Source of the DNA: a virus
Direction: 5' to 3' (one strand)
Virus record (IMG/VR): IMGVR_UViG_3300017938_000007
Location: 44,010-108,009 of that record
DNA: 64,000 bases
In this document: positions 21,462-55,448 of the stretch, one piece after another
Position numbering within the stretch: the first letter of the stretch is position 1
How the letters are laid out: every line of letters begins with the position of its first letter
The notes under the pieces: model-generated
Told to the model about the DNA's origin: nothing
The model's input: only the letters and a program-made list of their open reading frames with translations
The model's database searches: none
Position numbers and translations under genes: made by a program

Positions 21462-22925
21462 ATGGTTATTCTAAATGAATCGGGAAGACCGATGTTGGCG
21501 TCGGATGGCGGTCACATCAGCCGCTTTACCGACATTCTTGAGTGGGGCTATCGACTGGCCGAAACGCCGGTCGGCGTCCCCGAAAAAAGTCCTCGCGGCC
21601 TCTGGGAGGCTCGCGGCTGGAAAGAGTTTGTCGCCCACATGCCGGAATACAAACGGCCTCTGGCGGCGATCATGCTCGAAAACTGCCGCAGCCGCTTTGG
21701 CCGGTTGGACGAAGTGACGCGCACGACCTCTCTCGGCACTTTCGATAAATGGATTTTTCCAATTATCGCGAACATGTCCGAGAACGACGTGATCGATCAA
21801 CTGGTTGCGTTGCAACCGATGGCTGGCCCGGTCAGCCAGATCGTCTACATGGACATCGTGACTGGCCGTCGCAAAGGCCGCACTCCGGCAGGCGCTCCGA
21901 TGTGGCGTGCTCTGCAAGGCGCAACTGACCGCGACGATGACGGTGACGAAATCGTTCAGGACGAGACGGGAACCAGCAATGGTTCCGGCGTCATTGTCTT
22001 GGAGTGGACGCCGATCCGCCCCGGTACTCTTACCGGCAGCGTCAGCACGACAAACATTGCTGACGATGGCAACGGCAACATCATCAACACGTCGACCAAC
22101 GCGACAATCGGTACGGTGGTTTATCAGGGTACCGGCGCGGGCACGGTCACGGTTAGCACGCTGACCTCGGCGAGCTACGACATCAACTACGCGTTCAACT
22201 CTGAAGGCAACCTTGCCATTCAGGATTATGAGATGAAGCTGTCGTCCACGCCGGTCACGGCCAAGGTGATGAAGCTCAAGACTCTCTGGTCGGAAGAAGC
22301 CGATCAGAACTTGCAAGCAATGTATAATATCAAGGCGGAGAGCGTCCTGCTCAATGCTTTGACGAATGCGTTGCAGTACCAGAAACACCGTCAGGTTATC
22401 TTCGACCTGCGCGCCAAGGCTGACGCTGGCTTCGTTGTGTGGGATGCGATTCCCCCGACGAGCGTCAACTACCAGACGCACAAGTTCTCGATCATCGACG
22501 CGTTTGAAACCGCGAGTAACTTCATCTTCGGCGCTACGAACATGGTGGCCGGTAACTGGTTACTGTTGGGCCTTCAGGCCGCGACGGTCGTTGCCACGCT
22601 GCCGCAGTTCGTACCCAAGAACAACCGGACACAGATGCAGGGTATCACCTACATCGGCGACCTTGGGAACAAGAAGGTTTTTGCTGATCCTCACTATCCC
22701 AACAACGAGTTCCTCGTTGGGCACAAGGGGGATCAATTTTTGACAACCGGTTATGTGCTCGCCGAGTATCAAAAATTGTACACAACGCCCGACATCGTCC
22801 TGCCGGACTTCATCCACCAGCGCGGGTTTGCGACCAGCTTCGCCCGGAAGATGGTGAATTCAAAAATGTACTGCCGTGGCCTGATTCAGAACAGTCCTAC
22901 TGCGTTTGGTCAGACCATTGGATAA
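21462..22925 (+). CDS. Major capsid protein, gp23-like
   Basis: A 487-residue HK97-fold capsid protein of the T4 type. It has RPLAAIMLENCRSRFGRLDE near the N-terminus, then PIIANMSENDVIDQLVALQP and VSQIVYMDIVTGRR, a Gly/Thr-rich insertion (about 175-245), and a conserved C-terminal half (WDAIPPTSVNYQTHKF, ATLPQFVPKN). The N-terminal arm would be removed by the upstream protease, perhaps after a hydrophobic-x-Glu such as RLAE (about residue 33). It is followed by a strong terminator. A partial paralogue of residues about 325-425 is encoded at 53420. Confidence 0.88.
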   Translation: MVILNESGRPMLASDGGHISRFTDILEWGYRLAETPVGVPEKSPRGLWEARGWKEFVAHMPEYKRPLAAIMLENCRSRFGRLDEVTRTTSLGTFDKWIFPIIANMSENDVIDQLVALQPMAGPVSQIVYMDIVTGRRKGRTPAGAPMWRALQGATDRDDDGDEIVQDETGTSNGSGVIVLEWTPIRPGTLTGSVSTTNIADDGNGNIINTSTNATIGTVVYQGTGAGTVTVSTLTSASYDINYAFNSEGNLAIQDYEMKLSSTPVTAKVMKLKTLWSEEADQNLQAMYNIKAESVLLNALTNALQYQKHRQVIFDLRAKADAGFVVWDAIPPTSVNYQTHKFSIIDAFETASNFIFGATNMVAGNWLLLGLQAATVVATLPQFVPKNNRTQMQGITYIGDLGNKKVFADPHYPNNEFLVGHKGDQFLTTGYVLAEYQKLYTTPDIVLPDFIHQRGFATSFARKMVNSKMYCRGLIQNSPTAFGQTIG

Positions 22926-47036: not shown

Positions 47037-47162
47037 TTATTACAAATGCTCGAAGTAAAGCGCCACCGTATACGAGAACTGGGTGTGCTGGACAGCCGGA
47101 TCGCAAAAAGTATTTCGATGACCGCAGTAGTTAAAGCGAGTGAAATAGAACGCACTTTGACG

Positions 47163-49882: not shown

Positions 49883-50494
49883 ATGGCACGGATGAACTTC
49901 AATAACACGTTTGGTGCGCAGAACTCAAACTTGGATTTGCAGCGCGTCGACCTGTGGAAGGTCACGCTTGAACTTCCATCGGTGTTGGGCGGCAGTTCCG
50001 CGTGGAATGAAAACGTCGAATTCGCCCTTGAAAAGTTTCCTTTCCCGGAACGCAGTCGGGAAATGATTCAGATCAAGTACATGCAGCAGACCAACTACCT
50101 GATCGGCGGCGACACGCCGACTCCGGCCATTGAAATTCCCGTGCGGTACGCTTTTGCCCAGCGCACGGCGGAGATTCTGGAGAAATGGTTCTGGCTCGTC
50201 TCGAACCCGCTGACCGGCGGTGTTGGTTTGACCACGCAGGTCAAAGGCAAGGGCATCATGCGCTGGCAGGTGCCGAACATGGCCCAGTTGATCGCCGACA
50301 TGAACAGCGGCGCGCAGTCCAGCCAGAATACGATGAACGAGGGCCTGATTTACGCGCTGGAAGGCTGCATCATCAAGGGTCTGCGCTTCGCCGATGCCGA
50401 TATGACACAAAGCGGGGCCGTGAACCTGTTGTTCAATTTGCAAATCGACCGGTATTATCCTTTAAACGTTAACGATATGCAGGTTGTCGTATAA
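49883..50494 (+). CDS. Tail tube protein, gp19-like
   Basis: A 203-residue tube protein directly after the sheath. It has VDLWKVTLELPSVLGGSSAW, FALEKFPFPERSREMIQIKY, a conserved VRYAFAQRTAEILEKWFWLV segment and a final beta strand pair (AVNLLFNLQIDRYYPLNVND), typical of the gp19 fold. It forms the inner tube. Its stop overlaps the start of an HNH gene. Confidence 0.85.
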   Translation: MARMNFNNTFGAQNSNLDLQRVDLWKVTLELPSVLGGSSAWNENVEFALEKFPFPERSREMIQIKYMQQTNYLIGGDTPTPAIEIPVRYAFAQRTAEILEKWFWLVSNPLTGGVGLTTQVKGKGIMRWQVPNMAQLIADMNSGAQSSQNTMNEGLIYALEGCIIKGLRFADADMTQSGAVNLLFNLQIDRYYPLNVNDMQVVV

Positions 50495-51072
50495 TGACTA
50501 TCCCAATTGAAATTGGAAAACGCTTTAATCGCTTAACTATTGTTGCTGATGCTGGCAGTAAGCGTGTCGGTAAAAACGGGGAATCAAAGCGCATGGTTAA
50601 GGCCAAGTGTGATTGTGGAGTTACCTGCTTGAAACAATTTGGTTTAGTTCGGCGTGGCGTTGTAAAAAGTTGTGGTTGTTTGCAACGAGAATGGGTTTCC
50701 AAACACGCTTTGAGCAGGAGAAAACCGTTGGGTGAATCGTCATTTCATGCTTTTTACAAGGGTTATTACTATGGGGCTAAGAAGCGAAAACTGGAATTTT
50801 CGCTAACAAAGGAACAGTTCAGCTATTTGGTGCAGCAAAAGTGTGTTTATTGTGGTGTTGATCCGATGGACGTGTTTCAACCACAAGCTCGATACGGCGG
50901 TTACATACATAACGGTATCGACAGGGTTGACAACAGCAAAGGTTATACGCTTGACAATTCTGTAACTGCTTGTCGCACGTGTAATCTTGCAAAAGGCACT
51001 ATGACATCACGTGAATTTGAAGCGTGGATTAACCGGCTTGTAGCGTATCGGCAGCAACAGGTAGTGGTCTGA
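50494..51072 (+). CDS. HNH homing endonuclease with zinc-finger N-terminus (paralogue)
   Basis: A 192-residue nuclease related to that at 16343. The N-terminal zinc module is KCDCGVTCLKQ ... SCGCLQ. The catalytic part is KCVYCGVDP, then HNGIDRVDNSKGYTLDNS and ACRTCNLAKG. It is AT-rich relative to neighbours and begins on the last base of the tube stop, so it was inserted in or next to the tube gene. Confidence 0.92.
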   Translation: MTIPIEIGKRFNRLTIVADAGSKRVGKNGESKRMVKAKCDCGVTCLKQFGLVRRGVVKSCGCLQREWVSKHALSRRKPLGESSFHAFYKGYYYGAKKRKLEFSLTKEQFSYLVQQKCVYCGVDPMDVFQPQARYGGYIHNGIDRVDNSKGYTLDNSVTACRTCNLAKGTMTSREFEAWINRLVAYRQQQVVV

Positions 51073-52227: not shown

Positions 52228-52581
52228 ATGGTTATCAACGTCACAGATTCACAGGTCGTCGGCGAAACGCTTTCAACGCTGTTCACGATGCTCCAGACCG
52301 GCCCGGTCAACGCGCTGGTGATCCTGAAAAATTCCGGTGTCAACACCATGAATTACGATTTTCAGGAATACAACGGCACGGCATGGGTGGATTTGGGTGC
52401 TTCTGGCTCGGTGCTGAACACCACGTTGCAGGCCAATCAAGTGGTTGTGCTTCAGGTGCAGTCCAATTATCCGCAGGTGCAACTGGTGGGCAATGCCTCT
52501 GGCGGTGCTTTCTTGGAATTTACCGTTACCCGCTATTTCAATCGGACATCTGGCGGCGCGCTTCCCATTTTGAATCTCTAA
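52228..52581 (+). CDS. Decoration-like beta-sandwich protein 2
   Basis: A 117-residue protein, mostly one beta-sandwich: NALVILKNSGVNTMNYDFQE ... ANQVVVLQVQSNYPQVQLVG. The motif LKNSGVNT matches LENTGVNT at 42331 and FENTGPNQ at 60963. TAGTTA is 6 nt before the ATG. Its stop overlaps the end of the convergent nuclease gene. Confidence 0.6.
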   Translation: MVINVTDSQVVGETLSTLFTMLQTGPVNALVILKNSGVNTMNYDFQEYNGTAWVDLGASGSVLNTTLQANQVVVLQVQSNYPQVQLVGNASGGAFLEFTVTRYFNRTSGGALPILNL

Positions 52582-53399
52582 AAAGGTTCCACATTGTAAA
52601 TGTGGTAGACCTCGCGGTAGGCCCCTTGAAGGCTGGTCAAGCCCATTTCAGCCACTTCCTTTGGATCAACCAGCACCAGCGGGGCCGGTTCCGGCACGCC
52701 CGGCACGTCGGAGTTCAATAGCGTGCGTTCCAGTGATTCGTAAAACGAAGCTTTGTGCTCTTCGGGAATCTTGGCGTCGATGGCTTGCACGACGCTGCCA
52801 AAATCCATGTCGGGTGTGATGTCCTCGAACAGGCGCTGAACTTTTTTCGGCCCCCAGCCCCGGATGCCCTGAATGTTGTCGACCGGATCACCGATGATTG
52901 CCAGCGCCACCGAGATTTGGCTGGGCCGCTTGATGTGCCAGCGCTGGTTAATGAATGCTGTAGACAACACGGCTTTATTGTTCAGGCAGTAGTAATGGAT
53001 GCGCTCGTTGGTTTGCAACTGCATCAAATCTTTGTCACCGGAGACAATATAAATATGGTCGGCTTTGCTCGCGTATACAGCCGTTGCCACAAGGTCATCC
53101 CCTTCGTAATGAGGATGTTCCGCATGGGCGGTTCCCAGCAACAGCGTGAGAATTTCCTTCAGCACTTCTTTGGTCTGGTGATACTCCGGCGGTTTTTCCG
53201 AACGACCTTTATTGGGATTTTGCGCGCCGTCCCAGCAAAATAAAGTCCGGTCAAAGTGAGAGCCAATCCGATTAGTGTTGGGGTTGAGCAGGAGCAAGAT
53301 CGTGTTGATGGCCAGCCGGAGAGCCTGTGGCGGGTCAGGATCGACGCGCTGGGCGGCAAACCACGAGCGGGCATAAAGCGAGTTCGCGTCGATGATCAT
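52578..53399 (-). CDS. 5'-3' exonuclease (FEN family)
   Basis: A 273-residue FEN/PolA-5'-nuclease-like enzyme. N-terminal MIIDANSLYARSWFAA, acidic metal sites HYEGDDLVATAVY and IYIVSGDKDLMQLQ, and the helix-hairpin-helix AIIGDPVDNIQGIRGWGPKK. It removes RNA primers and flaps, as T4 RNase H does. ATG 53399 gives the conserved start; a GTG at 53411 adds four residues. Confidence 0.9.
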   Translation of the reverse strand: MIIDANSLYARSWFAAQRVDPDPPQALRLAINTILLLLNPNTNRIGSHFDRTLFCWDGAQNPNKGRSEKPPEYHQTKEVLKEILTLLLGTAHAEHPHYEGDDLVATAVYASKADHIYIVSGDKDLMQLQTNERIHYYCLNNKAVLSTAFINQRWHIKRPSQISVALAIIGDPVDNIQGIRGWGPKKVQRLFEDITPDMDFGSVVQAIDAKIPEEHKASFYESLERTLLNSDVPGVPEPAPLVLVDPKEVAEMGLTSLQGAYREVYHIYNVEPF

Positions 53400-53419
53400 G
53401 TCGGTGGGCACAGGTATGA

Positions 53420-53836
53420 TTAAGCTTCAAAGTTAATGACCTTGATCCATGCGCAGACAGGTTTTCCGTTTTGGAGACAGCCCTGAAAATCCATTGCTTT
53501 GTCCCTGTCGAGCAGGACTTTCCTGCGGCTTACTTCTCCCAGCAAAACGTAGTCTCCTCGTTTAGGGAGCAGGCCGTTTTTGGTGGCTTCGGGTATAAAA
53601 TGCGGGAGGGTGGCGAGGATACGGGCGAACTGGAATCCCACGATTAGTTCCTCCGTTTGCTCGCTCGGATCAGTGCGCAGGGCGGCGCTGCACCTTTCTA
53701 CGGCGTCCAAGATGGTGAACTTATGGGCCTGAAAACTTACGCCGGTCGGTGTTGGGGTGGCATCCCAAGTGACTTTGTAATCAGGTGTGACGCTGAGCAA
53801 ATAATCTTTGGGCTTTATGTCGTCCGCTGGATTCAT
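53420..53836 (-). CDS. Stand-alone homologue of part of the major capsid protein
   Basis: A 138-residue protein starting at ATG 53836 (ATGA overlap with the upstream frameshift ORF). Its middle aligns with capsid residues about 325-425: VTWDATPTPTGVSFQAHKFT against VVWDAIPPTSVNYQTHKFSI, and ARILATLPHFIPE against ATVVATLPQFVPK, then a GEVSRRKVLLD strand against GDLGNKKVFAD. It lacks the rest of the HK97 fold. It may be a minor capsid-lattice component, an assembly modulator, or an independently evolved domain. It sits between a gp26-like gene and a nuclease. Confidence 0.65.
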   Translation of the reverse strand: MNPADDIKPKDYLLSVTPDYKVTWDATPTPTGVSFQAHKFTILDAVERCSAALRTDPSEQTEELIVGFQFARILATLPHFIPEATKNGLLPKRGDYVLLGEVSRRKVLLDRDKAMDFQGCLQNGKPVCAWIKVINFEA

Positions 53837-54009
53837 CGTACTCTTATGCGCCGGTTTTCTTCTTCCACGTTCTCGTTGCGCCACGCTACAAACAGCTTGA
53901 GGATGTCATCCGGTATCCGACTCAAATCTAAAATGAGACCTTTGCCGTCCCATGCGAGGTCGAATAAAATTCGATACCGGGCCTCACGCGAGTTCAGCGC
54001 GGCCTCAAC
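53833..54009 (-). CDS. Putative +1 frameshift extension of the gp26-like protein
   Basis: A 58-codon coding frame (VEAALNSREARYRILFDLAW ... LKLFVAWRNENVEEENRR) has no ATG or GTG at its start. It begins at the end of the gp26-like gene where GAC TTT TTT CGT TGA allows a +1 slip (TTT C to GTT GAG) past the stop. Its end overlaps the next ATG. The W/R/E-rich helical sequence resembles the second half of tail assembly chaperones, which are commonly made by frameshifting. Confidence 0.55.
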   Translation of the reverse strand, partial: VEAALNSREARYRILFDLAWDGKGLILDLSRIPDDILKLFVAWRNENVEEENRRIRVR

Positions 54010-54751
54010 GAAAAAAGTCTTGGTCGAAGCTCAGCAAATGCGTGAACTCTTTGCCGCAGTCATCGCAGATGTGCGGCAGGTTGGTGTTCAGGTGCGGGGA
54101 AAGTCTTCTTTCCTCCTCTTCGATAAATTTCGCGTCCCGTGGGTGCAGCGCTTTGACGTACGCGATCAATTCGTCAATCGTGTCCGGTTTGGAATCGTTG
54201 ATGGTGACGATGGGCAGCAGTTGGCGCAGCCGGGTGTCCGAAATGCGCTGTTTTTGTTCGGGGGGACGATCTTCGATGATTTTTTCGTCCTTCACCAAGA
54301 GAGGCCGGATACGGAGGATGTCTTTGCATTCCGGCAGGGTGATGTCGTCATAGCCGGGATAGCCATCAGCTTTTTCCCCGGCCTTTTCGAGTTCGTCGGG
54401 TACTTTGATCTGCTCCAGCTTTTTGTGGGCGCAGAACGGGCATTGGGACGTGTAATGCACGATGCCTTCGGTGGACAGGGCGCGGGCGACCAGCAAAATG
54501 GTTTGAACTTCATCGGCCACGAAGTCGTCCACCTTGGCTCCATTCAGTTCGCAAAGTTTGGCGACCAGTCCGAAGACCATTTGCTGCCGGGAAGCTTTGC
54601 GGGCCGACTCCACGAGGTATTCGTCAACTTCGCTGTCCCACGGGTACACCGTTATTTTTCCGCCCGGCCACGCCGTGCGGTTGGAGAAGCCGTGGGAGAT
54701 CAGCGTGATTTCACGTTTGAACGCCTGCCGCCGGGGGGTCAGGCTCTTCAT
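54005..54751 (-). CDS. Baseplate hub assembly / tail-chaperone-like protein (gp26-like)
   Basis: A 248-residue protein starting MKSLTPRRQAFKREITLISH with PGGKITVYPWDSEVDEYLVE, then a helical part with AVQ-like repeats, and two Cys pairs, CPFCAHKK (about residue 126) and CDDCGKEF near the end. The order resembles the T4-type base plate (gp26) family. It ends with TTTTTTCGTTGA, where +1 frameshifting would append 58 residues. Start at 54751 is preferred to 54769. Tail assembly chaperone is the alternative or additional role. Confidence 0.5.
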   Translation of the reverse strand: MKSLTPRRQAFKREITLISHGFSNRTAWPGGKITVYPWDSEVDEYLVESARKASRQQMVFGLVAKLCELNGAKVDDFVADEVQTILLVARALSTEGIVHYTSQCPFCAHKKLEQIKVPDELEKAGEKADGYPGYDDITLPECKDILRIRPLLVKDEKIIEDRPPEQKQRISDTRLRQLLPIVTINDSKPDTIDELIAYVKALHPRDAKFIEEEERRLSPHLNTNLPHICDDCGKEFTHLLSFDQDFFR

Positions 54752-54758
54752 GTTTGTT

Positions 54759-55448
54759 TTAATCGACAAGGGATACCTCCATAATTTGGTTGGCTGTTTT
54801 TTGTTTTCGTTTTAAAGCAACGTTTGCATCTTTATAAAGGGTTTTTATGACGCAATAGGCGTTCCAACCGTTGCATTTCACAGTGAAGCAAAATTGACTT
54901 GAAGTTTTTGATATGGCATAGGTGCAGCCAGTCAGCTTTTTTACATAATTTTTGAATTGTTCCGCTAATTTAGAACACGCGCACAATTGAATGAAGGGTA
55001 CTTTTGTTTTTCCGCTACGACTTATGTAAACTGATCCGTTACCATCAATAATGCCACGCCAAAAATCGCGGTCAACGGCTAGTGAGTCATCAATTGAGCA
55101 ACCTTTTGATTTACGCGGCTTAACACCTAGATTGAGTAACCGGTGCCAAATAGAAGGACTGATAAAAGCAAACCTCGCTTGCGTTGTTCGGCCAAAGTTG
55201 GTATTGTAAGTATACACTGTGATTTTGTGTTTCGATTTTAAAAATTCTCGAAAGCGCCTAATATGGGCCACGTCTTTAACACTCAGGTTAAGCGCAATCA
55301 TCTTATAGAACACAGTTTTTCCGCTTTTCCGCGTGCGTTTTGCCAGTGTCAAGCAGCCGTCTGCCATCAAAAATCCCACCCAGTAACGGGCTTCCGATGT
55401 GAGGCTGTCGAAAGCTTCGTGATCAATAGGTAAAAATGTTGTTTTCAC
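54759..55448 (-). CDS. LAGLIDADG homing endonuclease (two motifs)
   Basis: A 229-residue monomeric LAGLIDADG enzyme. Motif 1 is ARYWVGFLMADGCLT (about residues 20-34) and motif 2 is DFWRGIIDGNGSVYI (about 128-142), each with the catalytic acidic residue. It is AT-rich, and its 3' end overlaps the longest possible gp26-like start. Typical free-standing homing gene between structural genes. Confidence 0.92.
   Translation of the reverse strand: MKTTFLPIDHEAFDSLTSEARYWVGFLMADGCLTLAKRTRKSGKTVFYKMIALNLSVKDVAHIRRFREFLKSKHKITVYTYNTNFGRTTQARFAFISPSIWHRLLNLGVKPRKSKGCSIDDSLAVDRDFWRGIIDGNGSVYISRSGKTKVPFIQLCACSKLAEQFKNYVKKLTGCTYAISKTSSQFCFTVKCNGWNAYCVIKTLYKDANVALKRKQKTANQIMEVSLVD

Follow-up and report, generated by a model that had tools for sequence, protein, structure and literature searches.

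A stand-alone homologue of the capsid A-domain region, apparently moved between loci in large gp23-type phages, is a candidate capsid mimic

The locus raises the question of why a phage should carry, far from its major capsid gene, a small separate gene that matches only part of that capsid protein. The window (the whole 64,000-nt stretch analysed, belonging to a 108-kb viral record) contains an intact minus-strand ORF encoding a 138-aa protein, P0001 (Table 1). A preliminary description had claimed that this protein is homologous to a fragment of the capsid protein (residues about 325-425), that its gene lies 30 kb from the capsid gene and that it is not a simple broken copy. All three points hold: the homology is real, the distance is about 30 kb, and the gene is separate and intact, which sets it apart from a broken copy. 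BLASTP aligned P0001 residues 22-110 with residues 325-409 of the phage's own 487-aa capsid protein at 38% identity (55.1 bits, E = 1e-14 in this single comparison), while the best score of 2,000 shuffled controls was 24.6 bits. In a profile-profile comparison, the stand-alone proteins (P0001 and those described below) aligned to capsid residues 322-421 (E = 8e-22). The capsid protein itself scored 101.9 bits against Pfam Gp23; a Pfam search with the 138-aa protein gave no match and the profile of the segment gave no meaningful match to PDB sequences. The homology to gp23-type capsid proteins is significant, and on these alignments P0001 is solidly a paralogue of them. The aligned extent is about a quarter of the capsid protein and does not include the N-terminal arm, the E-loop or the P-domain, the regions that hold HK97-fold lattices together. 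P0001 is consequently not a functional major capsid protein, which would be full-length and have these three regions and the A-domain. From the homology and general knowledge of HK97-fold proteins, we infer that P0001 corresponds to the A-domain.

Table 1. Coordinates of the features discussed (window positions unless a locus is named).
Feature	Coordinates	Strand	Evidence or remark
Stand-alone gene, 138-aa protein homologous to the gp23-type capsid A-domain region	53420..53836	-	BLASTP, shuffles, profile comparison; start codon ATG from 53836, last base of the stop at 53420
Major capsid protein, gp23 type, 487 aa	21462..22925	+	Pfam Gp23, phrog_138, T4 gp23 PDB chains
Capsid segment homologous to P0001 (residues 322-421)	about 22425-22724		
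Exonuclease gene (follows the stand-alone gene)	52578..53411	-	phrog_107
Extension of the gp26-like gene in another frame, entered at TTTTTTCG	53833..54016	-	Conserved frame without start codon, nine loci
gp26-like baseplate gene (precedes the stand-alone gene)	54005..54769	-	phrog_150; Pfam T4_baseplate at its cut-off
HNH-type and LAGLIDADG endonuclease genes among tail genes	50494-51072; 54759-55448; L087 2173-3015	+; -; +	
Relatives' endonuclease-like genes by the capsid gene	L094 1722-5207; L099 2580-3398; L101 4582-7083; L103 4557-6053		
G013 stand-alone protein	L058 1384-1938	-	

Structure prediction pointed in the same direction, with differing strength in the two libraries compared. 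The AlphaFold2 model of P0001 had a moderate mean pLDDT of 68, with residues 61 to 110 at 82-88. Against predicted viral structures, major capsid proteins occupied ranks 1, 2, 3 and 5 (best E = 6e-5); against the PDB, the top rows were HK97-fold capsids including T4, with weak scores (E of 0.1 or worse). The order of helices and strands agreed with that of the predicted capsid segment (the capsid model was poor, pLDDT 42, and was set aside for superposition). The resemblance of the model to capsid proteins is thus clear among predicted viral structures and weak in the PDB; the lack of a shared fold, which the preliminary description had named as evidence against its claim, was not observed.

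The same description had named absence of the ORF from all related phages as further evidence against it, but such a gene does occur in some of them. A search with the capsid protein brought up dozens of related records, and about 40 related records were examined for stand-alone proteins. The search with the 138-aa protein found two, in G011 (a 24.9-kb fragment) and G013 (230 kb), and a profile of these first stand-alone proteins found a fourth copy in G032 (225 kb). The three additional proteins are 145-175 aa long and cover the same capsid segment. A profile of all four revealed no further copy in the related records, and the capsid gene was the sole match in the remaining records with a match. 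Of the six genomes that reach about 200 kb, three carry a copy (the window and G001 counted as one) and no copy was found in G006, G010 and G012 at this search sensitivity, on which the absence calls depend; some records are incomplete. G001 is a 199-kb viral record (that of L004) of the same phage as the window, with 100% identity over the 19 kb compared; it stops near window position 47147 and adds sequence on the upstream side, so that both records jointly span at least about 216 kb, if collinear throughout. As it is the same phage and stops short of the locus, G001 was dropped as an empty-site control.

Outside these records, the annotated phage collection gave no stand-alone A-domain gene. 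The matches inspected there, in IME392, phiLo and Ab1-TPeters, were rejected as stand-alone copies, all being full-length capsid genes, and so was Erwinia phage Y3 gene 244 (125 aa, chosen by length), a jumbo-phage single-domain fold match without sequence relation. The stand-alone profile matched nothing in prokaryote genomes. In searches of open-access papers we found no description of a stand-alone single capsid domain or A-domain gene; capsid paralogues of full length, gp24 for example, are already known.

The surroundings of the window copy were analysed in detail. Read along the minus strand, a baseplate hub gene is followed by a LAGLIDADG endonuclease gene, the gp26-like gene, its out-of-frame extension, the stand-alone gene and the exonuclease gene. 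In nine of nine loci (the window and L086-L093) the gp26-like gene terminates in an invariant TTTTTTCG, after which a conserved frame (+1 or -2) that has no start codon of its own continues for about 55 codons. A programmed frameshift at the end of the gp26-like gene is likely, and the frame preceding the stand-alone gene is no ordinary gene but seems to prolong the gp26-like gene through such a shift. The start of the stand-alone gene overlaps the stop of this frame (ATGA), which makes the translational coupling claimed earlier plausible. Since it is the extension stop that overlaps the next start, coupling would serve frameshifted ribosomes only. In six relatives the extension leads directly to the exonuclease gene, with a gap of 175-196 bp vs. 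594 bp in the window, indicating that precisely the stand-alone gene is absent there. The same junction is occupied in G004 and G005 by an HNH-type gene in opposite orientation (Pfam HNH was below its cut-off). HNH-type and LAGLIDADG endonuclease genes are also scattered among the tail genes. Directly downstream of the capsid gene, several relatives have GIY-YIG-like or otherwise endonuclease-like genes (labels from sequence), a placement that would suit a capsid gene targeted by homing.

The remaining three copies are each found at an unrelated place. The G011 copy, at a distance of about 5 kb from the capsid gene of that record, runs antisense to the genes around it, the G013 copy is located between HTH-like and holin-like genes (again labelled by sequence only), and the G032 copy is antisense to its neighbours. 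These copies sit in lineage-specific regions: the DNA around them had no match in relatives, and no empty sites were found. Absent at the junction in six relatives, and with stray, non-syntenic copies in three related phages, the stand-alone gene is an optional accessory gene and no conserved virion gene; its distribution is the one that a gene moving between loci would show.

These positions bear on the possibility that P0001 is a minor virion protein, an A-domain module sitting at special capsid positions (e.g. at capsomer centres or close to the portal) or tuning the assembly of its own shell. Homology to the capsid protein would fit such a role, and so would the setting of the window copy, which lies in a baseplate operon with its start overlapping the stop of the gp26 extension. 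We nevertheless consider it unlikely, given that close relatives of the same capsid type do without the gene, that the other copies are outside structural clusters, in unrelated regions, and that the protein is devoid of the lattice-forming regions. The binding to special lattice positions, put forward as a possibility in the preliminary description, finds no support in view of the same observations. Of its other suggestions, a decoy role would fit the accessory pattern, and regulation of assembly, like competition with capsid subunits, is equally conjectural.

Next to their positions, we compared the extent and conservation of the four proteins. Each of them reaches from just ahead of the capsid W-D-A-x-P motif, or what corresponds to it, to beyond the strand bearing D110, and all keep the residues invariant in the capsid family (W24, H38, D44, G67, L77, P78, G100 and D110). 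They also have features in common that capsid proteins do not show: a turn one residue shorter and often acidic, replacing T...GNW, and about 4-10 additional residues ahead of the next strand. P0001 scored 68 bits against the G011 protein and at most 47 bits against any capsid protein. In the tree, which is subject to long branches, P0001 and the G011 and G013 proteins clustered apart from 33 capsid proteins (support 96/85 and 95/98); the branch of the G032 protein was very long and its placement not firm, and a clade of all four was not rejected (p-AU 0.745). Between stand-alone copies, codon positions 1 and 2 were better kept than position 3, although codons were paired via the protein alignment, which somewhat favours conservation of positions 1 and 2. 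Taken at the sequence level, there are signs of protein-level constraint on the family.

A capsid-gene segment that homing endonucleases or illegitimate recombination copied and spread, and that does little or nothing for the phage, might produce a similar distribution: in this group capsid genes have endonuclease genes beside them, endonuclease genes occur near the window locus, and the HNH-type gene in G004 and G005 sits at the very same junction. Such a passenger would hardly be expected to show four frames intact despite deep divergence, features common to the stand-alone proteins and absent from capsid proteins, and the codon pattern mentioned above (with its possible alignment bias), and we regard this explanation as improbable. 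Reuse of the A-domain fold for a task unrelated to the capsid, e.g. a host-takeover function, has in our opinion a similarly small chance, as the long branches, differing N-termini, varied neighbours and the opening of the G013 copy would suit it, but the four proteins retain one and the same extent along with the residues invariant in the capsid family, which suggests conservation of the fold, if not necessarily of the partner. The G013 protein starts MNRRDALKAFGFVAIATTADHV, a short hydrophobic stretch resembling a twin-arginine signal.

The combination of an optional, mobile and apparently constrained gene leads us to propose, tentatively, that P0001 is a single-domain capsid paralogue, moved between loci, that acts as a capsid mimic, i.e. 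as a decoy or competitor. Bacterial immunity is known to be triggered by capsid proteins, which satellites target as well, and a one-domain gene with signs of constraint, sporadic among close relatives, is a natural candidate for such a mimic. In the mechanism we propose as a whole, a small accessory family would have arisen long ago by a split from this phage group's capsid gene, and the stand-alone gene would then have moved between loci, leaving many relatives without it. The protein would work in the infected cell, presenting the A-domain surface without the parts needed for lattice building; such a surface would compete for something that binds capsid A-domains, which might be a host capsid sensor or the capsid subunits of a competitor. 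The broader notion that large gp23-type phages bear mobile, free-standing A-domains as soluble mimics, shielding them from host sensors or disturbing the assembly of competitors, is more doubtful. For finding the binders of capsid A-domains, the stand-alone protein would supply a ready-made soluble A-domain.

Finally, we compared the stand-alone protein with known systems. It is homologous to the gp23 family (Pfam PF07068) over capsid residues 322-421, with predicted helices and strands in the same order, but it has about a quarter of the length and is encoded by a separate, sporadic gene. Like the Gol peptide of gp23 and the CapRel and Thoeris triggers, it may concern a part of the capsid protein recognised by a host factor; those triggers are parts of the working capsid protein, whereas here the part has a gene of its own. 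Gol is located in the N-terminal part of gp23 and falls outside the capsid segment present in the stand-alone protein. The T4 vertex protein gp24 is likewise a capsid paralogue encoded by its own gene (PMC9958956), but it is a full-length HK97-fold protein at the vertices, while P0001 is a single segment of one domain and not a gp24-type vertex protein. Satellites redirect capsid assembly with small proteins, of which CpmB and Rcm resemble part of the scaffold (PMC12409344). These redirectors (CpmB, Rcm, Sid and TcaP) are also small separate proteins acting on phage capsid assembly, but they are scaffold-like or sequence-unrelated and satellite-borne, whereas the stand-alone protein is capsid-derived and phage-borne. 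CapRel touches the P-domain and an A-domain loop of the capsid protein, the capsid being the immune trigger (PMC9712102), and sensing of capsid hexamers has been proposed for Thoeris (PMC11312562). By analogy, CapRel, Thoeris and the satellites make a role as capsid mimic plausible.
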